Shown here: one piece after another, positions 950 through 16,600 of the stretch
How positions within the stretch are numbered: the first letter of the stretch is position 1
Layout of the letters: each line of letters begins with the position of its first letter
Assembly: GCA_016792935.1 (NCBI GenBank)
Contig: JAEUJS010000712.1
Span: 1-36,819, forward strand
DNA: 36,819 nucleotides
Origin: Archangium sp.
GTDB lineage: Bacteria > Myxococcota > Myxococcia > Myxococcales > Myxococcaceae
Direction of reading: 5' to 3'
The notes under the pieces: model-generated
Seen by the model: only the letters and a program-made list of their open reading frames with translations
Database searches by the model: none
What the model was told of the DNA's origin: nothing
Made by a program: the position numbers and the translations under genes

Positions 950-2326
950 TCAGTCGCGATCTCCGAGGCCGTGCTTCGCCAGCCGGTAGCGCATCGAACG
1001 GAAGGTCAGCCCCAACAGCTCCGCGGCGCGCGTCTTCACGCCGTCGGCTTTGCGGAGCGAGGCCTCGAGAAACCGCCGCTCCACACCGTCGAGATGACGC
1101 TCGAGCGAAAAGCCATCGCCCAGCTGCACTTCGCCCGCGCTGGCGACCGGCTCCGAAGCCGAGGCGCCGGTCACTGCGGGCGGCAAGCTTTCTGGGCCCA
1201 GCAGCTTCCCGTCGGCCAGCGTCGCCGCGCGCTCGATGATGTTGTGCAACTGCCGCACGTTGCCCGTGAACGGGTACTTCTCGATGAGCGCGAGCGCTTC
1301 CTCGGTGAAGGCCATGCCCGGCCGCTCGAGCTCTTCCGACACACGCGCGAGGAAGTACTCGGTGAGGGGCCGAATGTCTTCGCGACGCTGACGCAGCGGC
1401 GGCAGCTCGAGGTTGATGACGTTCAAGCGGTGAAAGAGATCTTCACGGAAGCGCCCCGCCTTCACCTCGTCATCGAGCCGGCGGTTGGTGGCCGCCAACA
1501 CGCGCGCCTCGAACGGCACCTCTCGTGAGCTGCCCACCGGCTTGACGCGCCGCTCCTGCAGCACGCGCAAGAGCTTCACCTGCGTGCCCATCGGCAGCTC
1601 GCCGACCTCGTCGAGCAACACCGTGCCATCGCCCGCCGACACGAGGATGCCGGTGCGATCGCTCGTCGCTCCCGTGAACGCCCCGCGCATGTGACCGAAG
1701 AGCTCGCTCTCGAGCACCCCTTCCGCGAGCGCGCCGCAGTTGATCGGTACGAAGGGTGCGTTGGCGCGCGGGCTGCGGTTGTGAATGGCGCGCGCCACGA
1801 CTTCCTTGCCGGTGCCGCTCTCTCCCGTCACGAGCACCGTGGTGCGCGCGACCGCGACCTTGTCGACCAGCGCCCACACGTCGCGCATCACGCCGCTGGT
1901 GCCGACGAAGTACTCGGCGTGTGGCGTGAGCGACGCGCGCAGCGTGCGGTTCTCTTCGCTCAGCCGGCTCTTCTCGAGCGCGCGCTCCACCAGCAGCATC
2001 AGCTCGTCGTTGTCGAAGGGCTTGCTGATGTAGTCGTAAGCGCCCTGCCGCATGGCCTGCACCGCCGACGCCGGCGTGCCGTAGGCGGTGATGACGATCA
2101 CCTCGGCAGGTGGATTGAGCGCGCGCGCCGAGCGCACCACGTCGAGGCCGGAATCGTTGCCGATGCGGAAGTCGCTGATGACCAACTCGGTGCCACCCCT
2201 GGCGAGGATCATCTGCGCTTCGCTGAGCGCGCCCGCGAGTTCGACGGTGTGGCCGCTGCGCGTCAGCAGCACCTCGAGGAACTCGCGAATCGAATGTTCA
2301 TCGTCAACGACCAGAATGCGCGACAT
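950..2326 (-). CDS. pilR: PilR-type sigma-54-dependent response regulator
   Basis: This 458-residue NtrC-family activator has three domains in order. The receiver domain (1-120) has its phosphoacceptor Asp in VISDFRI at about residue 52 and a SKPFD lysine. The AAA+ domain (about 140-370) has Walker A GESGTGKE, the GAFTGA sigma-54-contacting loop and Walker B VLLDEVGEL. A Fis-type helix-turn-helix lies at the C-terminus (RAAELLGLTFRSMRYRLAKH). The start MSRILVVDDE is the standard N-terminus of the receiver fold. The gene overlaps the end of pilS by 23 bp, so the pair is probably translationally coupled. In the PilSR family, phosphorylated PilR activates the sigma-54 promoter of the pilin gene pilA; pilA itself is not in this window. 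Confidence 0.93.
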   Translation of the reverse strand: MSRILVVDDEHSIREFLEVLLTRSGHTVELAGALSEAQMILARGGTELVISDFRIGNDSGLDVVRSARALNPPAEVIVITAYGTPASAVQAMRQGAYDYISKPFDNDELMLLVERALEKSRLSEENRTLRASLTPHAEYFVGTSGVMRDVWALVDKVAVARTTVLVTGESGTGKEVVARAIHNRSPRANAPFVPINCGALAEGVLESELFGHMRGAFTGATSDRTGILVSAGDGTVLLDEVGELPMGTQVKLLRVLQERRVKPVGSSREVPFEARVLAATNRRLDDEVKAGRFREDLFHRLNVINLELPPLRQRREDIRPLTEYFLARVSEELERPGMAFTEEALALIEKYPFTGNVRQLHNIIERAATLADGKLLGPESLPPAVTGASASEPVASAGEVQLGDGFSLERHLDGVERRFLEASLRKADGVKTRAAELLGLTFRSMRYRLAKHGLGDRD

Positions 2327-4013
2327 GGGTCTCCTCGTGCTGCGTCGTTGGCGATGAGGTGCCGAGCGTCGGCGCGTCGAGCGCGCGCAGCGTCACCGAG
2401 AAGGTCGTCCCTGCTTCTGGATTCGAGTCGACGGTGATGGTGCCACCGTGCGCCTGAACGATGGAGCTCACCGTCGACAGACCGAGCCCGCTCCCGCCGC
2501 GCGAGCGCGAGAAGAACGGGTCGAAGATGCGCTGGCGATCTTCCGGCGCGATGCTGCCCGCGCTGTCCCACACCTCGATCAGCGGCCCGGCTTTCACCCG
2601 AATGCGAATCGAACCACTTCGCGAGGTGATCGCCGCGGCGGCGTTGCGCAGCAGGTTGATCAACACCTGCTTCACCTGGCTCGCGTCGCACGCGGCTTCC
2701 ACCGGCTCGAGTTCCTCTTCCACGCGCACGCCGAGGAACGACGGGTCGGCGCGCAGGAGCTCGAGCGTCTCGTGCACCACGTGATCGAGCCGCGTCGGAA
2801 CCAGCTGTGGCCGCGGAGGCCGTGCCAGGTCGAGATAGCCTTCCACCAGACCGGCGAGCCGATCGGCCTCGCGCACGATCACGTTGGCCAGCTTGTGCTG
2901 CGGAGCGCTCGCCGAGTCTCCCGCGAGCAGTTGCGCCGAGCCACGCATCGCCGCGAGCGGGTTGCGGATCTCGTGCGCCAGCTGCGCCGACAGCCGGCCC
3001 AGCGTGGCGAGGTGATCGATCTTGTCGAGTTCCTGCTCGACGCGCCGCAGCTCGGTGAGATCTTGAAACACCACCAGCAGACCGCGCGCGCCCGGCAACG
3101 TCGCGACCGAGAGGCCCAGCGTGCGTTCGCCGCGTGGCGTCTGCACCTTGAGCTCGTGCCGGCGCGCCACCACCAGGCCCGTGACCTGCGGAAACAATGA
3201 CTCGATGTCGCGTTGCCCGACCACCGACTCGGCGCTGACTCCGAGAATGCTCGCGGCGGCGGGATTCAAGAAGGTGACTGCGCCCACGCTGTCGCAGGTG
3301 ATCAACCCCGACGGCATCGCCGAGACGATCTCGTTCTGCAGCTCGGTCAGCTGCTTCACTTCGCGCTCGCTGGCGTCGAGCCGGCCACCGGTGCGCGTGA
3401 GCTGCTCTCCGACGTAGCCGCTGAGCACGGCGATCAAGAGCTGGGCGAGCAGCTGAATGAAGAGATCGAGCGCGAAGCGCACCGGGTCGGACGTGGCGAG
3501 CGAGCTGGGCACGATGGCGAGCACCCCCAGGTACGCCGACGCCGCGCCGAGAAAGCCGATCACCGCACCGCGGGTCCCGAGCAACACGGCCGCGCCGACG
3601 ATGGAAACCAGGAACAGAAACGAGAAGGGCGAGCGCGAGCCGCCGGTGAGAAAGACCACGCTCGCGGCGAGCATCACGTCGAAGACGATCTGCACCCACG
3701 CGGCTTCGACACCGACGCGCGAGCGGCGGATCAACAGACCCGTCACCAGCGTGAGCACGTAGCTGAAGCCGATGATGCCGAACGAGGCGAGATCGGCGCG
3801 CGAGAGCTCGCCAGTGGGAATCGAGGCGAGCTGTGCACCGAGACCACCGAGCACCAGCGTGGTGGCGATGGTGCGGAAGATGGTCAGCCACAGGAGGCGA
3901 ACCGTGAGGCCGCCTCCCGCGCGCAGATCCGTCTTGCTCGAAGTTCGCCCGACCGTCTTCGCTGGTGGCGCCGCCGGGCCGAGGCCCCGAGCGTCGCGAC
4001 TACTTGATGGCAC
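2304..4013 (-). CDS. pilS: PilS-type membrane sensor histidine kinase
   Basis: Six hydrophobic segments in the N-terminal third (from LLWLTIFRTIATT to LIAVLSGYVGEQL) match the PilS membrane sensor. They are followed by a PAS domain, a HisKA box (AHEIRNPLAAMRGSAQLL) and a HATPase domain (N box NLLRNAAAA; G box GGSGLGLSTV). PilS senses pilin in the membrane in studied species and phosphorylates PilR, encoded immediately downstream. The start is uncertain. The annotated GTG at 4013 overlaps the end of pilC by 14 bp and has no Shine-Dalgarno; an ATG at 4070 would overlap pilC by 71 bp. The only strong ribosome site, GGGAGG, lies 7 bases before an in-frame ACG at 3905, right at the first membrane helix. 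The product is 533-588 residues depending on the start. Confidence 0.88.
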   Translation of the reverse strand: MPSSSRDARGLGPAAPPAKTVGRTSSKTDLRAGGGLTVRLLWLTIFRTIATTLVLGGLGAQLASIPTGELSRADLASFGIIGFSYVLTLVTGLLIRRSRVGVEAAWVQIVFDVMLAASVVFLTGGSRSPFSFLFLVSIVGAAVLLGTRGAVIGFLGAASAYLGVLAIVPSSLATSDPVRFALDLFIQLLAQLLIAVLSGYVGEQLTRTGGRLDASEREVKQLTELQNEIVSAMPSGLITCDSVGAVTFLNPAAASILGVSAESVVGQRDIESLFPQVTGLVVARRHELKVQTPRGERTLGLSVATLPGARGLLVVFQDLTELRRVEQELDKIDHLATLGRLSAQLAHEIRNPLAAMRGSAQLLAGDSASAPQHKLANVIVREADRLAGLVEGYLDLARPPRPQLVPTRLDHVVHETLELLRADPSFLGVRVEEELEPVEAACDASQVKQVLINLLRNAAAAITSRSGSIRIRVKAGPLIEVWDSAGSIAPEDRQRIFDPFFSRSRGGSGLGLSTVSSIVQAHGGTITVDSNPEAGTTFSVTLRALDAPTLGTSSPTTQHEETHVAHSGR

Positions 4014-5247
4014 CGGCGATGCTGAAGATGGGGAGGTACATGGCGATGAGGAAGCCACCGACCGCGCCACCGAGGAAGACCATCATGATCGGCTCGATGA
4101 GCGAGGTGAGCGAGGCAACGCCAGCGTCGACTTCATCGTCGTAGAAGTCGGCGATCTTGCCGAGCATCTGATCCATCGCGCCGGTCGCTTCACCGACGCC
4201 GATCATCTGCACGACCATCGAGGGGAACACCTTGGTCTCGGCGAGCGGGCCGGCGATGTTCTTACCTTCGGCGATCTTCGCTCGGACGTACTGGATGCCC
4301 TTCTCGATGGTGCGGTTGCCGGCGGTCTTCGCCGTCACGTCGAGCGCGTCGAGAATGGGAACGCCGGAGCTGATCATCGTGCCCAGCGTGCGCGTGAAGC
4401 GCGCGACGGCGACCTTGCGAATCAGATCTCCGATCAGCGGCGCGTAGAGGATGCCCTTGTCGAAGATCTCCCGGCCGCGGGGGTTCTGGTAGAACATGCG
4501 GAACGCGACGATGACGACCGCGATGCCGATCATCAAATAGATCAGGTTCGCCTGCAGCCAGTCGGACAGCGAGACGACGACCTGCGTCGGACCAGGCAGC
4601 GCTGAACCAAAGTCGGCGAACATCTTCGCGAACACGGGCGTCACCTTCACGAGCAGCACGCCGGTGACGAGAATACCGATGCAGACGACGGCGATCGGGT
4701 ACGTCAGCGCGCCCTTCACCTTGCGGTACAGCTTCTCTGACTTCTCACGGTAGACCGCGAGGCGGTTGAGAATGGTATCGAGAATACCGCCGACCTCACC
4801 GGCCGCGCAGAGCTGCACGTAGAGCTCGTCGAAGACCTTGGGGTGTTCCTTGAGCGCGTCAGAGAACGTCGAACCACCTTCGACGCGCGTCTTGATCGCG
4901 AACACGACTTTGCGGAACGCGGCGTTCTCAGTCTGGCTGCCGAGAATGTCGAGGCACTGCACGAGCGGAAGACCGGCGTCGATCATCGTCGCGAACTGGC
5001 GCGTGAAGATCAGGATGTCCTTGCTCGCCACGCCGCCCGGAAGGGCGATGTTCATGTCGAGCAGGCTCTTCTTGCGGACCTTGGTGACGGTCAGGCCGAG
5101 CGAGATGAGACGGGCCTCGACGGCCTTCTCGTCGCCGGCCTCCATCTCGCCCTTCTTGACCTCGCCCTGCTTGGTCTTCGCTTCCCAGAGATAGACCGGC
5201 GTCGAGGACTTCTTCGCCGCTGCCTTGACGGTTGCTGCCTGGGCCAT
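4000..5247 (-). CDS. pilC: Type IV pilus inner-membrane platform protein PilC
   Basis: A 415-residue GspF/PilC-family protein. It has two copies of the T2SF domain: the first holds FTRQFATMIDAGLPLVQCLD, the second FTRTLGTMISSGVPILDALD. Three hydrophobic stretches match the family: YPIAVVCIGILVTGVLL, LIYLMIGIAVVIVAF, and the C-terminal IMMVFLGGAVGGFLIAMYL. PilC is the platform that PilB and PilT act on to add or remove pilin subunits. The ATG at 5247 is preceded by a clear GGAGGG ribosome site. It lies 89 bp downstream of pilT, in the conserved order pilB-pilT-pilC, and its 3' end overlaps the annotated pilS start. The length is normal for the family. Confidence 0.95.
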   Translation of the reverse strand: MAQAATVKAAAKKSSTPVYLWEAKTKQGEVKKGEMEAGDEKAVEARLISLGLTVTKVRKKSLLDMNIALPGGVASKDILIFTRQFATMIDAGLPLVQCLDILGSQTENAAFRKVVFAIKTRVEGGSTFSDALKEHPKVFDELYVQLCAAGEVGGILDTILNRLAVYREKSEKLYRKVKGALTYPIAVVCIGILVTGVLLVKVTPVFAKMFADFGSALPGPTQVVVSLSDWLQANLIYLMIGIAVVIVAFRMFYQNPRGREIFDKGILYAPLIGDLIRKVAVARFTRTLGTMISSGVPILDALDVTAKTAGNRTIEKGIQYVRAKIAEGKNIAGPLAETKVFPSMVVQMIGVGEATGAMDQMLGKIADFYDDEVDAGVASLTSLIEPIMMVFLGGAVGGFLIAMYLPIFSIAGAIK

Positions 5248-5316
5248 GAGCCCTCCAGATGATCAGTAGACGAAGCGCCGCGATGTTAGCCGCGTGCGCA
5301 CAAACTCCAAATGACC

Positions 5317-5331
5317 GGTGCGTGTCGCACC
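5317..5331 (-). other. Short perfect hairpin between pilT and pilC
   Basis: GGTGCG and CGCACC form a perfect 6-bp inverted repeat with a 3-base loop, beginning 5 bases after the pilT stop. No T-run follows on the minus strand, so it is not a classical intrinsic terminator. It could stabilise the pilT 3' end or set the pilT:pilC ratio. No function can be read directly from the sequence. Confidence 0.45.
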
Positions 5332-5336
5332 TGCCC

Positions 5337-6470
5337 TTACCTGCCAGGAGGCCCTGCGGGGCGAGGCACGGCGCCAGAAGCCTGGTGGCCGGGGAGCTGC
5401 GCTCCGCCACCCGACGCCATGATGTTCTTGAGCTCTTCGGGGTCGCTGGTGCGGCCGAAGGCCTCGTCCATCGAGATCATCTTGCGCGAGAGCAACGCGG
5501 CGAGCGCCTGATTGAAAGTCTGCATGCCGAACTTCGCCTGGCCGACCTGCATCTGCGAATAGATCTGGTGCACCTTGTCTTCGCGAATGAGGTTTCGAAT
5601 TGCAGGGTTCGGGATCATCACCTCGAGCGCCAGCACGCGACCGCCACCCTGCGCGCGGGCGAGCAGCGACTGCGACATGATGCCTTCGAGCACGAAGCTC
5701 AGCTGCGCGCGCACCTGCGGCTGCTGGTACGGCGGGAACACGTCGAGGATGCGGTTGATGGTCTGCACCGCGCTGTTGGTGTGCAGCGTCGCGAAGGCGA
5801 TGTGACCGGTCTCGGCGATAACCAGCGCGGACTCGATGGTCTCGAGGTCGCGCATCTCACCGACCAGCACGACGTCGGGGTCCTGCCGCAAGATGTACTT
5901 GAGCGCGAGCTTGAAGCTCTTCGTGTCGGCACCGACCTCGCGCTGGTTCACGAGGCAGTTCTTGTGCGGGTGCAGGTATTCGATCGGGTCTTCGATCGTC
6001 ATGATGTGCTCGTGACGGTCGGTGTTCACCTTGTCGATGATCGACGCGAGCGTGGTCGACTTGCCTGAGCCCGTCGGCCCCGTCACCAGCATCAGCCCAC
6101 GCGGCTTCTTCGAGAGCTCCTGCACGATGGGCGGCAGGCCCAGTTCCTGGAACGTCAGGATCTTGAAGGGAATGGTGCGGAAGGCGCCGGCGACGGCTCC
6201 GCGCTGCATGAAGATGTTCGAGCGGAAGCGCGAGAGGCCCTTCACGCCGAACGAGAGGTCGAGTTCGTTGTCCTCTTCGAACTTGTGCTTCTGCGCGTCG
6301 GTGAGAATCGAATAGCAGAGCTGCTTGGTCTCGACCGGAGTCAGCGGGTTCATCTTCAGCGGGACCAGATCGCCGTCGATGCGGAGCTGCGGAGGAGAGC
6401 CAGTGGTGATGTGGAGATCGCTTGCGCCGCGATCGACCATGGCCTTGAGCAGCTGGTGAAGATTCGCCAC
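5337..6470 (-). CDS. pilT: Type IV pilus retraction ATPase PilT
   Basis: A 377-residue secretion ATPase. From the GTG at 6470 the protein begins (M)ANLHQLLKAMVDRGASDLH, the usual PilT N-terminus; the frame is open 88 codons further upstream but that part is compositionally unlike protein and overlaps the end of pilB. The ribosome site AGGAAGTTC lies just ahead of the GTG. Walker A is GPTGSGKSTT (about 131-140), the Asp box is TIEDPIEYLH, Walker B is VLVGEMRDLE and the His box GHIAFATLHTN. The C-terminal AIRNLIRE motif, needed for retraction in studied PilT proteins, is present. It powers pilus depolymerisation and hence twitching or S-motility. A 38-bp gap separates it from pilB. Confidence 0.96.
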   Translation of the reverse strand: MANLHQLLKAMVDRGASDLHITTGSPPQLRIDGDLVPLKMNPLTPVETKQLCYSILTDAQKHKFEEDNELDLSFGVKGLSRFRSNIFMQRGAVAGAFRTIPFKILTFQELGLPPIVQELSKKPRGLMLVTGPTGSGKSTTLASIIDKVNTDRHEHIMTIEDPIEYLHPHKNCLVNQREVGADTKSFKLALKYILRQDPDVVLVGEMRDLETIESALVIAETGHIAFATLHTNSAVQTINRILDVFPPYQQPQVRAQLSFVLEGIMSQSLLARAQGGGRVLALEVMIPNPAIRNLIREDKVHQIYSQMQVGQAKFGMQTFNQALAALLSRKMISMDEAFGRTSDPEELKNIMASGGGAQLPGHQASGAVPRPAGPPGR

Positions 6471-6508
6471 GAGAACTTCCTTCCTGAACTTCCTGGAGTC
6501 AGTGAGTT

Positions 6509-8212
6509 TTAGAAACGGTCGGGCGCGGTGTTGGAGACCGCTTCGTCGACGGTCGACACGCCAGCCATCACCTTCGAGATGGCCGCCATGCGCAGCGTCT
6601 GCATGCCGAGCCGAATCGCCTCTTGCTTGAGCTCGGCGGCCGACGCGCCGTTGATGACGATCTCCTTGAGGCCGTCCCAGAAGGGCATGACCTCGTACAC
6701 GGCGACTCGGCCGCGGTAGCCGCGATCGTTGCATTCCTTGCAGCCGCCCTTGTCGTAGAGCGTGAAGGAACCGATCTTGTCCGCCGGAACGCCGGCGTTG
6801 ATCAGGGCCTGCTCGTCGACGTTGGCGACCTGCCGCTTGCAGTTTTGGCAGAGCCGGCGCAACAGACGTTGCGCGAGGATCAGGTTGAGCGACGCCGTGA
6901 CCATGAACGGTTCGATGCCCATGTTCAGCAGGCGGCTGACCGTGCCCGGCGCGTCGTTGGTGTGCAGCGTGGACAACACGAGGTGGCCCGTGAGCGCGGC
7001 CTTCACGCCGATTTCCGCGGTCTCGAAGTCGCGGATCTCACCGATCATGATGGTGTCGGGGTCTTGCCGGAGGAACGAGCGGAGCGCGGCCGCGAAGTTG
7101 AGGCCGATGCTGTCCTGCATCTGCACCTGGTTGATGCCCGCGAAGTTGAACTCGACGGGATCTTCCGCGGTGGACACGTTGGTGGTCGGGTCGTTCAGCG
7201 CGGCGAGCGCCGAATAGAGCGTGGTGGTCTTTCCCGAACCCGTGGGGCCGGTCACCAGCACCATGCCGTACGGGCGATCGATCGCTTCCTTGAACCACTT
7301 CAGCGGCTCGGGGTCGAAGCCGAGCTTGGTCATGTCGAGCTGCAGGTTCGACTTGTCGAGCAGACGCATGACGACTTTTTCGCCGAACAGCGTCGGGCAG
7401 ACCGAGACGCGGAAGTCCATCTCCTTGCCGCCGCCCAGCTTGATCTTGATGCGTCCGTCCTGCGGCAAGCGGCGCTCGGAGATGTCGAGCTGCGACATGA
7501 TCTTCAGACGCGAGATGATCGCGTTGCGCAGCTTCATCGGCGGCTTCATCACCTCGTACATCACGCCGTCGATGCGGAAGCGGACGCGGAAGTCCTTCTC
7601 GTACGGCTCGACGTGGATGTCGGAGGCGCGCTTGCTGATGGCGTCCTTCAGGATCAGGTTCACCAGCTTGATGACGGGCGCGTCGTCGGCGGCCTTGGCG
7701 GCCTCTTCGACGTTCTCGCTCGAGGTCTCGGCGACCTCGACGTCGTCTTCACCCATGCCCTCGACGATGTCTTCGAGGCTGGGGCCCTTCTCGGCGTAAA
7801 AGCGCTCGATGGCCTCGCGAATCGCGGGCTCCGAAGCGACCACCGCTTCGATGTTGTAGCCGGTGAGGAACTTCAGATCGTCGACGGCGTAGATGTTCGA
7901 CGGGTCGCACATCGCGACGATCAGCGCTGAGCCGGCGCGGTTGACGGGCACCACGAGGTGCTTCTCGGCGACGTCTTTGGGGACGAGCTTGATGATGTCG
8001 GGCTCGACGTCGAACTCCTTCAAGTTGATCGCCGGAACGCCGTACTGCTTGCTCAAGAAGTCGGTGAGCTTCGACTCCTCGATGGCGCCGACCTTGATGA
8101 GCGCGGTGCCGATGCGCGTACCGGTCTTCTGCTGTTCTTCCTGCGCTTTGCGGAGCTGTTGAACCGAGATGAGGTTTTCGCGAACGAGCAGCTCGCCCAG
8201 ACGACCTGACAT
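6509..8212 (-). CDS. pilB: Type IV pilus assembly ATPase PilB
   Basis: A 567-residue extension ATPase starting MSGRLGELLVRENLIS at the ATG at 8212; an upstream in-frame extension to 8458 runs through the terminator and ribF and is rejected. The N-terminal MshEN/GspE-N region (residues 1-150) includes a first RLGELLVxxxLIS-type motif; MshEN domains bind c-di-GMP in some PilB relatives. Then come Walker A GPTGSGKTTT, the Asp box STAEDPVEF, Walker B IMIGEIRDFE, the His box GHLVLSTLHTND, and a tetracysteine zinc site (CQNC and CKEC). It powers pilin polymerisation through PilC. It is the first gene of the minus-strand pil block. No convincing promoter could be found in the short gap upstream. Confidence 0.96.
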   Translation of the reverse strand: MSGRLGELLVRENLISVQQLRKAQEEQQKTGTRIGTALIKVGAIEESKLTDFLSKQYGVPAINLKEFDVEPDIIKLVPKDVAEKHLVVPVNRAGSALIVAMCDPSNIYAVDDLKFLTGYNIEAVVASEPAIREAIERFYAEKGPSLEDIVEGMGEDDVEVAETSSENVEEAAKAADDAPVIKLVNLILKDAISKRASDIHVEPYEKDFRVRFRIDGVMYEVMKPPMKLRNAIISRLKIMSQLDISERRLPQDGRIKIKLGGGKEMDFRVSVCPTLFGEKVVMRLLDKSNLQLDMTKLGFDPEPLKWFKEAIDRPYGMVLVTGPTGSGKTTTLYSALAALNDPTTNVSTAEDPVEFNFAGINQVQMQDSIGLNFAAALRSFLRQDPDTIMIGEIRDFETAEIGVKAALTGHLVLSTLHTNDAPGTVSRLLNMGIEPFMVTASLNLILAQRLLRRLCQNCKRQVANVDEQALINAGVPADKIGSFTLYDKGGCKECNDRGYRGRVAVYEVMPFWDGLKEIVINGASAAELKQEAIRLGMQTLRMAAISKVMAGVSTVDEAVSNTAPDRF

Positions 8213-8249
8213 GGAGTGTGCCCTTGGAGTGGGTGCAGCGTGAGACAGG

Positions 8250-8288
8250 AAAAAAAGAGCCCGCGGATTCAAACTCCGCGTTCCGGGC
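8250..8288 (-). terminator. Intrinsic terminator downstream of ribF
   Basis: On the minus strand GCCCG (8288-8284) pairs with CGGGC (8263-8259), enclosing an inner CGGA/TCCG stem; an alternative register pairs CGCGGA with TCCGCG around a 7-base loop. The outer stem is followed directly by TCTTTTTTT. This sits 25 bases after the ribF stop and 38 bases before pilB, so it should end ribF transcription and separate it from the pil block. Confidence 0.8.
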
Positions 8289-8312
8289 AAAGCAAGGATT
8301 GCGGAACGGGGC

Positions 8313-9236
8313 CTAGGTGAAACTGCGGGCCACCGCTTCGCGCGCCGCTTCGAGATCGCGCGCGATCTGCGCCGAGAGTTCGTCGGCGGAGCCGAAGCGC
8401 TTCTCCGCGCGCAGCCGTTCGAGGAATTCGACGCGCAGGCGCTGACCGTACAGGTCACCCGAATAATCGAACAGGTGGGCCTCGATGGTCACTTCCCCGC
8501 CGCCAAAGGTGGGTTTCACACCGATGTTGGCCGCACCGCCGCGCAACGTTTCCTCGCCCGGCACGCGCACGCGAATCGCGTACACGCCCGGAGCCGGACG
8601 CAGCTCGTTGGCAGTGTCGATGTTGGCCGTGGGGAAGCCGATGGTGCGGCCGCGGCCGGCGCCCGGTACCACCACGCCCTCGAGATCGAAGGGGCGGCTC
8701 AGGAAGCGCGCAGCGGCCTCCACGCGGCCCTCGAGCACGTATTCGCGAATCTTGCTCGACGAGACGACGACACCCTCGACCGTCACCGGAGCGACCGCCA
8801 CCACCTTCGCGCCGCGCGCCTTCGCGGCTTCGGTCAACGTCGCGACCGTGCCGGCGCGTTTCTGGCCGTAGGTAAAATCCGTGCCGACGACGATCGCTCC
8901 GACGCCGAGCCCGTCGAACAGACTCGCTTCGAACTGCGCCGGAGAGCTCTTCGCGTAGTCGAGGGTGAAGGGCTGCACGACGACGAAGGCAGCGCCCGCG
9001 GCCTCGAGGAGCTCGAGCTTGCGCGCCTGCAGCACGATCAAGCGAGGCGCGAGCTGCGGCTGCAGCACTTTGCCCGGGTGCGGGAGAAATGTGACGGCTG
9101 CGACCTTCCCGTGCTTCGCCGCTTCGGTGAACAGCGCCTGGTGGCCGAGGTGAACGCCGTCGAAGTTGCCGAGGCACGCCGCCGCGCCCTTCAGCTCACC
9201 GTTGGACGCCTCTTGAATCGATGCAAAGACCTTCAT
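8313..9236 (-). CDS. ribF: Bifunctional riboflavin kinase / FAD synthetase
   Basis: A 307-residue RibF: it phosphorylates riboflavin to FMN and adenylylates FMN to FAD in the cytoplasm. The N-terminal FAD-synthetase domain shows the nucleotidyltransferase signature (CLGNFDGVHLGHQAL), FLPHPGKVLQP, VVGTDFTYGQKRAGTV and the VSSSKIREYVLEG segment. The C-terminal flavokinase domain shows GRGRTIGFPTANI (the PTAN Mg/ATP motif), GVYAIRV and the HLFDYSGDLYG strand. The length is standard. It ends at the terminator ahead of pilB, so it is probably a separate transcription unit. Its ATG is only 18 bp from the start of the divergent gene at 9255, so promoters for the two must lie inside each other's coding region or be shared. 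Confidence 0.95.
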   Translation of the reverse strand: MKVFASIQEASNGELKGAAACLGNFDGVHLGHQALFTEAAKHGKVAAVTFLPHPGKVLQPQLAPRLIVLQARKLELLEAAGAAFVVVQPFTLDYAKSSPAQFEASLFDGLGVGAIVVGTDFTYGQKRAGTVATLTEAAKARGAKVVAVAPVTVEGVVVSSSKIREYVLEGRVEAAARFLSRPFDLEGVVVPGAGRGRTIGFPTANIDTANELRPAPGVYAIRVRVPGEETLRGGAANIGVKPTFGGGEVTIEAHLFDYSGDLYGQRLRVEFLERLRAEKRFGSADELSAQIARDLEAAREAVARSFT

Positions 9237-11774: not shown

Positions 11775-12401
11775 ATGCGCATTCCGCTTCGCCCTACAGC
11801 CGCCGGTGCCGAGCTCGTCGGCCTTGAAGAACCTCCCGACTGGACGGCCGTGTTCAACGGCTCGACCGGCCCGCTGGAGCTCGAGATCGGCTGCGGAGCG
11901 GGTGGCTTCGCGCTCGAACACTGCAAGCGCAACCCGTCGATCCGCTTCGTCGCGTTCGAGTGGCGCAAGAAGTACGCGCGCGAGGTCGCGTTCCGCGCCG
12001 AGAAACACGGCATCACCAACCTGAAGGTGATCGAAGGCGACGCGCGCATGGAAGTGCCGCGCCTCTTCACGCCCGGAAGTCTGGCGTGCATCCACCTCCA
12101 ATTTCCTGATCCCTGGTGGAAGCGCGCGCATCAGAAGCGGGCGATCCTCCAGCTCGACTTCACGAAATTCCTGCTGACGCTGCTCGCTCCCAATGGGCGC
12201 TTCGATTTCCGCACCGACGTGCAAGACGTCGGAGAGCGCGGCCTCAAGGTGCTCGAGCAGGCTGGCTTCCACAACCCGCTCGGGCCGTTGGTGTTCCACC
12301 CCTACGACGCCGAAGAAGCGCCCTCGACCCGCGAGCGGAGGTATCTCGCCTCGGGGCAGCCCGTGTATCGCGCGCGCCTCGTCAAGCTCGCGCAGCCGTG
12401 A
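11775..12401 (+). CDS. trmB: tRNA (guanine-N7-)-methyltransferase
   Basis: A 208-residue TrmB, which makes m7G46 in the variable loop of tRNAs using S-adenosylmethionine. The SAM-binding motif I is LELEIGCGAGGFALEHC (about residues 35-51). The family signature is LQFPDPWWKRAHQKR, and the C-terminal TRERRY segment corresponds to the TxYE-type motif. The length is normal for the family. It starts 24 bp after the previous stop and heads a run of four same-strand genes with small gaps or overlaps. The role in tRNA modification is independent of its signalling neighbours. Confidence 0.93.
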   Translation: MRIPLRPTAAGAELVGLEEPPDWTAVFNGSTGPLELEIGCGAGGFALEHCKRNPSIRFVAFEWRKKYAREVAFRAEKHGITNLKVIEGDARMEVPRLFTPGSLACIHLQFPDPWWKRAHQKRAILQLDFTKFLLTLLAPNGRFDFRTDVQDVGERGLKVLEQAGFHNPLGPLVFHPYDAEEAPSTRERRYLASGQPVYRARLVKLAQP

Positions 12402-12449: not shown

Positions 12450-13478
12450 ATGGCGGTCAGGCGCAAGACGCTCGAGAGCGCTCGACGCGAGGAGCCGGGG
12501 GGCTCGGTCAAGGGCCGACGCCTCCTCGTCGCCGATGATGATCAGCTGATCGTCTCGCAGATCCGTCAGGCCCTCAGCGGCAGCGAGTACGAGTTCGTGG
12601 AATGCGCTGACGGCACCGAGGTGTTGTCTGCCATTCGCCAACACCACCCCGATCTCCTGCTGCTCGACGTCGAGATGCCCGGCCTCGGCGGCGTCGAGGT
12701 GTGCCGCATCGTGAAGGCCAATCAGGGCTCGAGCGGGTTCGGCTTCATTCCTGTCATCCTGATGACCGCGCGGCGCACGGGAAAGGTCGAAGGCCTCGAG
12801 CTGGGCGCCGACGACTACCTGATCAAGCCGTTCGACATGCTCGAGCTCTCAGCGCGCGTGAAGTCGATGCTGCGTTTGAAAGCGTTGCAGGACGCGCTGA
12901 TGGAAAAGAACCGCGAGCTCGATCGCGCCAACAAAGAGCTCGAGGAGAAGCGCAACGAGCTGCTCCAGCTCTCGCGCACCGATGGCCTCACCGGGCTCAT
13001 CAACCGCCGTCACTTCGAAGAGCGGCTCGGCGCGGAGTTCGCGCGCAGTGAGCGGTATCGCGCTCCGCTCTCGTGCTTCCTGCTCGACATCGATCACTTC
13101 AAGAAGGTGAACGACACGTGGGGCCATCCCTTCGGCGACGTGGTGCTGCGCGAAGTGGCAGGCGTCGCGCGGCGTGCGCTGCGCGATGTCGACATCCTCG
13201 CGCGCTACGGCGGTGAAGAGTTGGTGGCGCTGCTGCCCGAGACGTCTCCTGAAGAGGCGTGGCGCGCGGCAGAGCGGGTGCGCATGGGCGTCGAGGCCAT
13301 GCGGCTGACCGCACAGACCGAAGAAGGTCCGACCACGGTGCGGTGCACGGCGTCGATCGGCGTCTCGACGTTCCCCAGCGAGTCGGTGGGGAGCGCCGAC
13401 GCCCTGGTGCAGGCCGCTGACGACTGCCTCTACGCAGCCAAAGAAGGGGGCCGCAATCAGGTGCGGCAGGCTGTATGA
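12450..13478 (+). CDS. Response regulator with GGDEF diguanylate cyclase domain
   Basis: 342 residues. The receiver domain (about 22-142) has the acidic cluster ADDD, phosphoacceptor Asp73 (LLLLDVEMPG) and Lys126 (LIKPF). A charged coiled coil (about 145-175) links it to a GGDEF domain (175-342). The signature reads GGEEL (254-258) rather than GGEEF, and the upstream inhibitory I-site RxxD is present as RDVD (245-248), five residues before it. The predicted reaction is 2 GTP to cyclic di-GMP, controlled by phosphorylation and product inhibition; the Leu at the last signature position is a mild deviation and activity should not be assumed. The architecture is REC-GGDEF, as in PleD-like enzymes but with one receiver. 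It overlaps the next gene by the ATGA quartet. Confidence 0.9.
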   Translation: MAVRRKTLESARREEPGGSVKGRRLLVADDDQLIVSQIRQALSGSEYEFVECADGTEVLSAIRQHHPDLLLLDVEMPGLGGVEVCRIVKANQGSSGFGFIPVILMTARRTGKVEGLELGADDYLIKPFDMLELSARVKSMLRLKALQDALMEKNRELDRANKELEEKRNELLQLSRTDGLTGLINRRHFEERLGAEFARSERYRAPLSCFLLDIDHFKKVNDTWGHPFGDVVLREVAGVARRALRDVDILARYGGEELVALLPETSPEEAWRAAERVRMGVEAMRLTAQTEEGPTTVRCTASIGVSTFPSESVGSADALVQAADDCLYAAKEGGRNQVRQAV

Positions 13479-13879
13479 GGCCTCTGACGATGCGCTGGGT
13501 GCTGCTCATTCTGGTGTTGGCTTCCTCGTGCAAGCCCAGGCCTTCGACGGCGACTCCAGAGCTCACCTACCGCACGTTCGTCGACGCGCTGCAGAAGGGT
13601 CAGGCGAAGGCCGCGTGGAATCTGCTCTCGGCGCCGACGCGTGAACGCGTGACGGCGAAGTCGAAGCAGCTCGCCGAGGCCAGCAAGGGGCTGGTGCGTG
13701 ACGAGCCCGAGACCCTCCTCTTCCAGGGGAGCCGACCGGGGACGATCACCACGATCACCCAGGTGCGCGCGGATGAGTCGAGTGCGACCTTGTCGGTGAC
13801 GAGTTCAGGTGGAACACACGAAGTGAAGCTCGTGAAAGACTCTGGCAAGTGGTTGGTGGACTTGTCAGATACGCTGTGA
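13475..13879 (+). CDS. Small predicted lipoprotein, NTF2-like size
   Basis: 134 residues. The N-terminus is a lipoprotein signal (WVLLILVLASSC) with lipobox ASSC, so the mature protein should be a membrane-anchored lipoprotein of about 115 residues. The rest (TYRTFVDALQKGQAKAAWNL at the start, SSATLSVTSSGGTHEVKLVK later, ending KWLVDLSDTL) has the helix-then-strand pattern of DUF4878/NTF2-like lipoproteins that begin with a 'F..AL..GD...A...L' helix. The ATG at 13475 overlaps the diguanylate cyclase stop (ATGA), and ATG 13490 is a possible alternative start. No enzymatic residues are evident. The family assignment is by pattern only. Confidence 0.75.
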   Translation: MRPLTMRWVLLILVLASSCKPRPSTATPELTYRTFVDALQKGQAKAAWNLLSAPTRERVTAKSKQLAEASKGLVRDEPETLLFQGSRPGTITTITQVRADESSATLSVTSSGGTHEVKLVKDSGKWLVDLSDTL

Positions 13880-13885
13880 GGCGCC

Positions 13886-14935
13886 GTGGTTGATCGCAAC
13901 AGGGGGAAACCGCCGGTTCAGGTGATCCGCAAAGGGTCGGCCCCCGTTTCGCCCACGCCTTCTCCTTCGACGGTGAAGCCCGTCGTCACGCCGACGCCGA
14001 GCGCTTCTTCGAGCGCCAATTCCACGGCTCCGAGTGCCGCCGTGCCTCCCGCGCGCAGCTCGTCACCGCGTCCTGGTGGAGCTGGAGGACCTCGCCCCGG
14101 TGGTGGGGGGCCGCGCCCGGGTGGAGGCCGCCCTCCCTTCCGTGGTCCGCCGCGTTCGAGTGTTCCGCTCGCGCCGCCGACGACCGAAGCGATCGCTGCG
14201 CTGGCTCGCAAAGAACGCGTGCCGAATCGGATCGCGCGCGGAGAGCTCGAAGGAAAGATGAAGTGCCGCATCTGGAAGAAGCTGCACGCCGAAGAGGCGA
14301 AGCGCTTCGATCAGGCGTGGACGTTGATGGAAGCGACTCCGGGGCTCGACCTCGCCGACGCGTTCGGCATCGTGCAGAGCGGCATGTCGGTCGAAGAGTT
14401 CCGCGCGCGGCGTGCGCGGGCGCGGCGGCGTGAGGCGATCAAGGAAGCGCGGTCGACGGTTGCGCCTGAGACGATCGACGCGTTCATCGCTGGTCGCATC
14501 GCGGACAAGAGCGAGCTGGCCATCGTGATGGGTGAGCGCACGGCGCTCGACGCGATGACGGCGGTGGCTCCGGTGTCGTTTACGACCGAGCGCACGGGGC
14601 AGCTCGAGAAGCTGCACGTGGTCGTCGTCGCGCGGAAGACGACGTGGGAGCGGTTGCTGCCCAGGCTCGAGCGCGATCCGAAGTTGTCGCAGAAGCCGGC
14701 GTCGGTCGCGCGGCAGCCTGCGCGTCGGCCAGTCAGCGATCCGCGCGCGTTCTTGCCGCACGTCGGTCAGTCGGTGACGCTGCAGCTGCGTAACGGGATC
14801 AAGCTGGAGCAGCCTTTGATCGCTGTCGGGCCGTTCGACGTGCTCGTCGGGACGAAGGATGAAGAGCTGTTCGTTCCGCTGCACGCCATCGTTGCGTGGA
14901 CTCCGCCCGCGGGCGCGAGCACCGACGGCGCCTGA
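13886..14935 (+). CDS. Disordered protein with C-terminal Hfq/Sm-like domain
   Basis: 349 residues from GTG 13886, 6 bp after the lipoprotein stop. Residues 1-95 are low-complexity Pro/Ser/Thr, then an RGG-like tract (PRPGGAGGPRPGGGGPRPGG). Residues 100-240 are helical and basic (RRARARRREAIKEARS). Residues about 293-340 align by eye with bacterial Hfq: VTLQLRNGIKL against VSIYLVNGIKL, PFDVLV in the Sm1 distal strand, and LHAIVAWTP against KHAISTVVP. The Hfq-family NG and HA residues are kept (Asn303, Gly304, His333), while the Lys before His is Leu and the FDQF loop is changed. The sequence suggests an RNA-binding Sm-fold protein with a disordered arm. Whether it forms a hexamer or binds RNA is unknown, and plain homology to a myxobacterial hypothetical family is also possible. 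Confidence 0.7.
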   Translation: MVDRNRGKPPVQVIRKGSAPVSPTPSPSTVKPVVTPTPSASSSANSTAPSAAVPPARSSSPRPGGAGGPRPGGGGPRPGGGRPPFRGPPRSSVPLAPPTTEAIAALARKERVPNRIARGELEGKMKCRIWKKLHAEEAKRFDQAWTLMEATPGLDLADAFGIVQSGMSVEEFRARRARARRREAIKEARSTVAPETIDAFIAGRIADKSELAIVMGERTALDAMTAVAPVSFTTERTGQLEKLHVVVVARKTTWERLLPRLERDPKLSQKPASVARQPARRPVSDPRAFLPHVGQSVTLQLRNGIKLEQPLIAVGPFDVLVGTKDEELFVPLHAIVAWTPPAGASTDGA

Positions 14936-14944
14936 GCCGCCGCG

Positions 14945-15275
14945 CTCGAAAGCACCTGCGACGAGCTGTGCTCGGGTGAGCGCTCGACGTCGTCGCGTTG
15001 AGAGACTCGTGCAGCGGAATGCGCTGCGGACGAGTGGTGTTCGCGTGAGCGCGATCGACCTCGTCGCGTTGAGAGACTCATGCAGCGGAAAGCGCTGCGG
15101 ACGAGTTGGGTTCGCGTGAGCGCGATCGACCTCGTCGCGTTGAGAGACTCATGCAGCGGAAAGCGCTGCGGACGAGTTGGGGTTCGCGTGAGCGCGATCG
15201 ACCTCGTCGCGTTGAGAGGCAGCGGAAAAGCACTGGGAGCGACTTGTGTTCGGGTGAGCGCGATCGACGTGCTCG
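14945..15275. repeat. 71-bp tandem repeat array, five copies, with internal hairpins
   Basis: The anchor gcg(a/c)tcgac recurs at 14980, 15051, 15122, 15194 and 15260 (intervals 71, 71, 72, 66). The middle copies are nearly identical; the outer ones are diverged and share variants (cgggtgag, gacgt). Three units contain the perfect stem GCAGCG/CGCTGC with a 5-base loop (15011-15027, 15082-15098, 15153-15169); the loop changes but the stem does not. A second short stem CGCGA/TCGCG spans the anchor. The array begins about 10 bases after the stop of the Hfq-like gene, so it would be in its 3' UTR if transcribed. No convincing protein is encoded. Confidence 0.85.
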
Positions 15276-15548: not shown

Positions 15549-15815
15549 TCAACGCCGACCGTCACTGCGCATACGAGCGGAGTTCCTCGAGCGACATCGC
15601 GCGTGCCACTTCTCACAAGACGCGCACGGGTACGCCTCGAGCGTCTTGCGCGTCTCGGGCTCGGCGTTCATGCGCTGCGCCGAGTCCTCGGCCGGGTACG
15701 CGATCTTCTTCCCGCAGGTGCGTTCGACTCCAGCATTGCGGCCCGCCTGCAGGTGCAGCTCGACGACTTCGGGTTCCATGCGCGCTGACGGAGGACCGCT
15801 CCGACGCTGACTCAC
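15549..15815 (-). CDS. Small zinc-ribbon-like protein
   Basis: 88 residues from GTG 15815, which overlaps the stop of the upstream gene in GTGA, or 76 residues from ATG 15779. The pattern is one Cys in RTCGKKIAYP, a spacer rich in A/E/R, then LEAYPCASCEKWHARC. This resembles small bacterial zinc-ribbon proteins in which a basic 'K..Y.....A' segment precedes 'YxCxxCxxWH'. It is the third gene of a minus-strand operon with the sigma-region-4-like and von Willebrand A genes. No specific function can be named. The conserved-looking YPCxxCxxWH core and the coupled start argue that it is real rather than a shadow frame. Confidence 0.6.
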   Translation of the reverse strand: MSQRRSGPPSARMEPEVVELHLQAGRNAGVERTCGKKIAYPAEDSAQRMNAEPETRKTLEAYPCASCEKWHARCRSRNSARMRSDGRR

Positions 15816-16600
15816 AGGTGCATGCGCAGCGCGTCGAGCACTTCCAGCCGCGTGCGGTTGGTGCGCTCATCGAACTGCACCTTGCACAGCGTCTTGATGC
15901 GCGAGAGCAGCCGGTATGCCGTCGCGCGTGAGACACCCCGCCCTTCGGCCCATTTCTCGACGGGCTGCCCATCCAACTGCGAGCGGAAGAGATCCTTCTC
16001 GTCGTCGCTCAACACCGCCGCGATGCCGCGCGCCAATCGCTGCGCATCGAGCCGGGCGCTGATCACCGACGGAAATTCGCGGCTGCCCGACTGACTGATC
16101 TCCGACGGCATCGCCGGGCGCACGTACCGCGCGAACAATTCCTCGGTCGCTTCCTTCGACGTCGGCCGCCGACGCAGTTCGCTCCACACCGCGGCGACCG
16201 CCTGCTCGACGGCGATGGGAGAGAAGCCCGTGCGCGTGGAGATCGACGGAGGAAAACCCGACTGCGCCGGACCCGCGACCGCCTCGAGCGCCTCACGCAC
16301 CTGCGCCGACAACGCGTGCCACGCCTGATGCGAGTCCTGATTTCCGGCGACCACCTGCTTGAAGCGGTGCTTCACCGCGCGCTCGAGCTCGGAGTGGCTC
16401 ATCGCGAGCAGCTCGGCTCTCCGCGCGTCGTCGAGCACGTGCCGCTCGAAGAACAACCCAATGAAGCCATCGAGCAAGGCCGCATCAACGCGACCCACTC
16501 CGACCACGATACGGCGGAGCGCGAGATAGTCCTCTTCCTGGAAGTCGTCGGACGCGTCGTAGCGCTGAAGCGCTTCGTGGAGTCTGGCGACGTCGCCCAT
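15812..16600 (-). CDS. Sigma-region-4-like helix-turn-helix regulator
   Basis: 262 residues starting MGDVARLHEALQRYD. The N-terminal two-thirds is acidic and helical (FQEEDYLALRRIVVGVGRVD and following) with no motif I recognise. The C-terminal 70 residues have the layout of sigma-70 region 4 or LuxR-type domains: LSDDEKDLFRSQLDGQPVEK, then the HTH GVSRATAYRLLSRIKTL. A region 2 typical of working sigma factors is not evident. It begins 4 bp after the upstream von Willebrand A gene and overlaps the zinc-ribbon start, so the three are almost certainly co-transcribed. A transcriptional regulator is the best reading. A divergent ECF-like sigma factor cannot be excluded. Confidence 0.7.
   Translation of the reverse strand: MGDVARLHEALQRYDASDDFQEEDYLALRRIVVGVGRVDAALLDGFIGLFFERHVLDDARRAELLAMSHSELERAVKHRFKQVVAGNQDSHQAWHALSAQVREALEAVAGPAQSGFPPSISTRTGFSPIAVEQAVAAVWSELRRRPTSKEATEELFARYVRPAMPSEISQSGSREFPSVISARLDAQRLARGIAAVLSDDEKDLFRSQLDGQPVEKWAEGRGVSRATAYRLLSRIKTLCKVQFDERTNRTRLEVLDALRMHL

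Follow-up and report, generated by a model that had tools for sequence, protein, structure and literature searches.

Myxobacteria use small RNAs (sRNAs), one of which, Pxr, gates fruiting-body development in Myxococcus xanthus. Which protein could serve these sRNAs in the place of Hfq? The M. xanthus sRNA literature describes no hfq homologue and expects another chaperone for Pxr (PMC5684412, PMC5568312). Pxr dates back to the base of the suborder Cystobacterineae, which takes in the clade that carries the protein analyzed here. That protein is encoded in the window, by which we mean the whole 36,819-nt stretch of Archangium sp. DNA that was analyzed, and is otherwise unnamed; we refer to it by the working name SmX (Table 1). 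Judging from gene order, its orthologue in M. xanthus DK1622 would lie shortly after MXAN_5791; a literature search by locus tag, using likely M. xanthus tags, did not find SmX in publications.

Table 1. Features of the SmX gene and its surroundings (window coordinates)
Feature	Position	Strand	Evidence or remarks
SmX gene	13886..14935	+	GTG start, 349 aa, stop at 14935; orthologues in 93/96 family genomes
N-terminal motif V[EQ]V[IVL][RK][RK], residues 11-16	13916..13933	+	Kept across full-length orthologues
Disordered Pro-rich, Arg-containing arm without RGG, residues 18-95	13937..14170	+	pLDDT mostly <50; composition
Conserved helical domain with RIA[KR]GELEGKMKCRIW, residues 96-191	14171..14458	+	Orthologue alignment and model
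Probable first Sm-like barrel, residues 195-250	14468..14635	+	Full AlphaFold2 model; weak Hfq matches
Conserved basic linker QKPxxVARQPxRRPxS, residues 269-284	14690..14737	+	Site counts, 35 orthologues
Hfq-like Sm domain, residues 285-340	14738..14905	+	Profile search, hhalign, AlphaFold2, Foldseek, site counts
Lipoprotein-like ORF	13475..13879	+	Directly upstream of SmX; same operon by spacing; conserved order
Response regulator-GGDEF diguanylate cyclase	12450..13478	+	Pfam E = 1.3e-44 and 7.7e-24; operon by spacing
trmB-like tRNA methyltransferase	11775..12401	+	Pfam PF02390; conserved gene upstream
pilB-like ATPase	6509..8458	-	Named by inspection of translation; conserved neighbour

SmX closes a tight run of plus-strand genes, in which it follows a subtilase-like ORF (identity by inspection), trmB, a response regulator-GGDEF gene and a lipoprotein-like ORF. 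The lipoprotein-like ORF overlaps the GGDEF gene at 13475-13478, and SmX starts 6 bases past its stop; this close spacing agrees with a first-pass annotation of the locus, which had placed SmX in an operon with a diguanylate cyclase. The most constant gene upstream of SmX is trmB, and the GGDEF gene is absent at this position in several relatives, including a termite-gut lineage with small genomes. Adjacent to the run lies a divergent pil cluster (950-8458); opposite-strand genes were read by inspection as ribF and pilB-T-C-S-R. The order pilR-S-C-T-B/ribF, diverging from trmB-(GGDEF)-lipoprotein-SmX, is conserved in relatives, with pilB, ribF, trmB, the lipoprotein-like ORF and SmX kept in loci that had enough flank. 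SmX is situated ∼5 kb from pilB, a linkage kept across the family, including the small genomes with pilB, pilT and pilC. Downstream, the hairpin-bearing repeat array mentioned in the same annotation does exist (14972-15268; period 71, 4.3 copies, a hairpin in each) but is specific to this genome and not a conserved partner. As it occurs in one place in this genome and was not found in the relatives' loci compared, we rejected it as an RNA partner of SmX. Searching the window against Rfam gave no match. A 262-aa ORF just downstream (15812-16600, minus strand) is shared by close relatives and has no Pfam family above cut-off.

Full-length SmX matched nothing in Pfam or NCBIfam. When its C-terminal 65 residues were searched alone, Hfq was the sole match in both collections, each time below threshold (E = 0.17 in Pfam, E = 0.032 in NCBIfam), and single SmX sequences fall under the curated Hfq cut-offs (12 bits versus 27 for PF17209; 14.1 versus 61.7 for TIGR02383). 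A low PF17209 score is no argument against a true Hfq relationship, because the divergent but structurally proven Hfq of Synechocystis itself obtains just 16.4 bits. Using a profile of 14 orthologues against all PDB sequences, the best match was the Hfq-like protein MJ1435 (E = 1.6e-4), followed by other Hfqs, and Sm proteins made up 10 of the 11 matches listed. Aligning the C-terminal domain profile with eight Hfqs by hhalign gave a probability of 83%, and a larger, more tightly cut profile of 35 orthologues gave 66%; for the latter, the score was 26.5 as compared to at most 14.7 in column-shuffled controls, with none of 200 shuffles as high. The Hfq references were well-known sequences, among them those of Synechocystis (identical to PDB 3hfo) and Thermotoga (107 bits against PF17209); a phage Hfq scan for the reference set yielded one close relative. 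Judging by these profile comparisons, the Sm-core resemblance of the SmX C-terminus exceeds chance.

The predicted structure points in the same direction. In an AlphaFold2 model built from 18 sequences, a helix (residues 286-292) is followed by five strands, with a pLDDT of 92-95 over residues 291-340. Foldseek comparison of the whole model with the PDB returned Hfq for nearly all of the top 50 matches (probability up to 1.00, rmsd ∼1.9 Å); the few others included LSm, SmAP and Gemin chains. Owing to the length of the query, the E-values were modest, from 0.014 upward. The top-ranked match, the viral protein ORF137 (2x4j), superposed poorly (rmsd 14 Å). Residues 285-340 are thus predicted as the helix plus five-strand barrel typical of Sm proteins, and SmX is, by prediction, a member of the Sm/LSm/Hfq fold superfamily. 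The proposal of the first-pass annotation that an Hfq/Sm-like C-terminus is fused to a longer protein is therefore borne out: the PDB profile search, hhalign, AlphaFold2 and Foldseek agree on Hfq, the Sm beta-barrel for which it had suggested structure prediction is indeed predicted, and Hfq outranks other SH3-like folds in Foldseek.

Which residues of Hfq are kept? Site counts in the 35 orthologues revealed conservation of the positions L26, N28, G29, F42 and H57. Y55 and K56 are central to the binding of U-rich RNA in Hfq; SmX has Pro and Leu there without exception, and Pro or Arg in place of Q41. Consequently, the [YF]KH motif of the Sm2 strand reads PLH in 35/35 orthologues, with the His alone retained. 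The arginine rim that follows the N-terminal helix of Hfq is missing as well: the linker there is shorter and has no basic run; basic residues instead form an invariant linker, VARQPxRRP, ahead of the Hfq-like domain and its helix. Since N28, G29, F42 and H57 are kept while Y55, K56, Q41 and the rim are changed, the pore loops are under strong constraint, with a different chemistry. Hfq is a small stand-alone protein, whereas the 349 residues of SmX include further conserved domains. By cut-off, motif, rim and architecture, SmX lies outside the curated Hfq family, yet it may still act in an Hfq-like manner.

Upstream of the Hfq-like barrel, SmX probably carries a second Sm-like barrel, which would make it a tandem Sm protein. 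In the full model, residues 195-250 form a helix (195-207) and five strands (210-215, 219-227, 231-234, 239-241 and 245-250) at a pLDDT of 90-93, with a turn pattern of the Sm fold type. When this region was modelled without the second barrel, confidence dropped, and the best Foldseek matches were mostly Hfq but weak (E >1, probability ≤0.69). Compared with Hfq sequences by hhalign, the first barrel aligned over the helix and strand 1 only (P = 0.0075, above all 200 shuffles); it had no hhalign similarity to the second barrel and no Hfq match in Pfam.

Within the helical domain, the motif RIA[KR]GELEGKMKCRIW is nearly invariant, and a comparison of this domain with Pfam and PDB sequences found no relative. 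The first-pass annotation had described a disordered N-terminal half; disorder and proline-richness are indeed present, but confident disorder covers about residues 1-95, or 27% of the protein. The arm is ∼30% Pro and contains Arg, with acidic residues almost absent. SmX has no RGG, and its relatives have almost none, so that the label of an RGG-like arm had to be dropped in favor of a Pro-rich one. The N-terminal motif V[EQ]V[IVL][RK][RK] is common to full-length orthologues across the family, the termite-gut lineage included, and this conservation suggests that it may be a binding peptide.

Globally, SmX was detected in 93 of the 96 family genomes and in all 26 genera, nearly always as a single copy and also in family members with genomes of 2.1-2.7 Mb. 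In a few family genomes, there is an additional copy that is diverged or partial. Two diverged second copies, both from one genus (G061:C241:15079-15630 and G074:C502:3589-4080), have 37% identity and lie in open frames of 420-422 aa. The three gaps in the distribution are consistent with assembly loss, because in one genome (G090) the contig stops ∼1.6 kb past trmB, and the other two genomes are 79% and 85% complete and likewise have no trmB. SmX is a core gene of the Myxococcaceae. Outside this one family, the search of the 195 Myxococcota genomes gave no orthologue; a phylum-wide role was rejected on this ground, which narrows the earlier suggestion of a missing RNA matchmaker 'of this phylum' to a single family. 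The accompanying premise that canonical Hfq is absent holds: scores pass the PF17209 cut-off for Hfq in none of the 195 Myxococcota genomes, as compared to 5 of 14 control genomes, in line with both sRNA papers cited above.

Hfq-like domains in Myxococcota, that of SmX included, seem to be mainly fused modules. In a neighbouring family of the same order, proteins combine a cyclic-nucleotide-binding domain (E = 1.3e-19) with an Hfq-like region at the C-terminus (PF17209 E = 0.0055, below threshold; L048:928-1680 on the plus strand, L049 and L050 on the minus strand). Moreover, FtsH-like proteins with an AAA domain and apparent transmembrane segments end in an Hfq_1-like domain (L112:550-2073 on the plus strand, L113 and L114 on the minus strand). 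This domain (PF21979) is over the cut-off in two genomes, and the one protein checked for a peptidase M41 match had none.

What, then, might SmX do? Our leading reading, to which we assign a probability of roughly 0.45, is that SmX is a family-specific Sm protein and a candidate RNA binder that stands in for Hfq in the Myxococcaceae. It is supported by the Hfq-like fold, the profile match, the retained N28, G29, F42 and H57 and the strongly basic linker, as well as by the status of SmX as a core gene where canonical Hfq is absent and where published work expects a chaperone for Pxr. Pro and Leu in place of Y55 and K56, the absent arginine rim and the other myxobacterial families that have no SmX argue against it, as does the linkage to pilB and the GGDEF gene, with trmB as the sole neighbour from RNA metabolism. 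The Leu at K56 and the pil linkage in particular weaken a role as RNA matchmaker, and because they recall the PilB-binding cyanobacterial Hfq, they make a serious, if less likely, rival of a scaffold at the base of the type IV pilus. In this reading, the Sm ring would bind not RNA but PilB or some other component of the pilus or of c-di-GMP signalling. In cyanobacteria, PilB and Hfq form a complex, and no RNA substrates of this Hfq have been identified (PMC8092324). The Hfq of Synechocystis has Leu at the K56 position as SmX does, and the linkage to pilB extends to the small genomes that retain pil genes. However, the cyanobacterial-type family PF21979 gives no match to SmX, H57 and the NG pair are lost in Synechocystis Hfq but retained in SmX, and the linkage may be passive, given how old and conserved the pil cluster is.

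It is also conceivable, albeit unlikely, that the Sm fold of SmX serves a different purpose: SmX might act on tRNA, rRNA or DNA, or be a c-di-GMP signalling adaptor that has nothing to do with sRNAs or pili. The constancy of trmB upstream would fit such a role, the large invariant helical domain without a relative may set the function, and the phylum also has cNMP-binding and FtsH-like AAA proteins with Sm-like domains fused to them; however, nothing speaks positively for any particular alternative. It is very improbable that the C-terminus resembles Hfq only superficially and belongs to a different kind of small SH3-like barrel. Scores of single sequences under the curated cut-offs and hhalign probabilities of 66-83%, not >95%, would leave room for it, but the top Foldseek matches are nearly all Hfq, with other Sm-type chains among the rest, the orthologue profile picks out MJ1435 at a significant E-value in a search of the entire PDB, and a divergent Hfq of proven structure reaches just 16.4 bits against PF17209.

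If SmX is indeed an RNA binder in the place of Hfq, its chains would close into a ring, and with two barrels per chain, a pseudo-hexamer could be built from three of them. Contacts to sRNA and mRNA would come from the pore loops, with their invariant G[PR]FD and PLH, from the basic VARQPxRRP linker and from the Pro-rich arm with its positive charge, the N-terminal VEVIRR motif could draw in a partner protein, and co-expression with the GGDEF response regulator would tie SmX to c-di-GMP signalling. This elaborated version as a whole, i.e. a trimeric tandem-Sm pseudo-hexamer that is the sought chaperone for sRNAs such as Pxr and is tied by its operon to c-di-GMP and pilus control, is quite unlikely. 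A core Hfq-like Sm protein in the Myxococcaceae makes the question of the missing chaperone for Pxr directly testable. Should SmX serve the pilus, myxobacteria would join cyanobacteria as a group in which Sm proteins and type IV pili are connected.

Among known systems, MJ1435 of Methanocaldococcus jannaschii (PDB 2qtx, 4x9c, 5dy9) is closest by profile and also stands near the top by fold (rmsd 1.9 Å; TM 0.72-0.78 over the target). Both proteins have an LRNG strand-turn, but MJ1435 is a stand-alone protein of 71 aa with an FKHAI motif, whereas SmX is a 349-aa fusion with PLHAI. With canonical bacterial Hfq (PF17209, TIGR02383), SmX has in common the N-terminal helix, the five-strand barrel and L26, N28, G29, F42 and H57; unlike it, SmX scores under the curated cut-offs, has Leu for K56 and Pro for Y55, has no arginine rim and is fused to other domains. 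A search of the window's genome with the cyanobacterial Hfq family PF21979 did not match SmX. Nevertheless, SmX and the Synechocystis Hfq (Ssr3341, PDB 3hfo) share the Leu at the K56 position, and the genomic link of SmX to pilB has its counterpart in the functional link of cyanobacterial Hfq to PilB, even though the cyanobacterial protein stands alone without NG and H57 and SmX is a fusion that keeps both.
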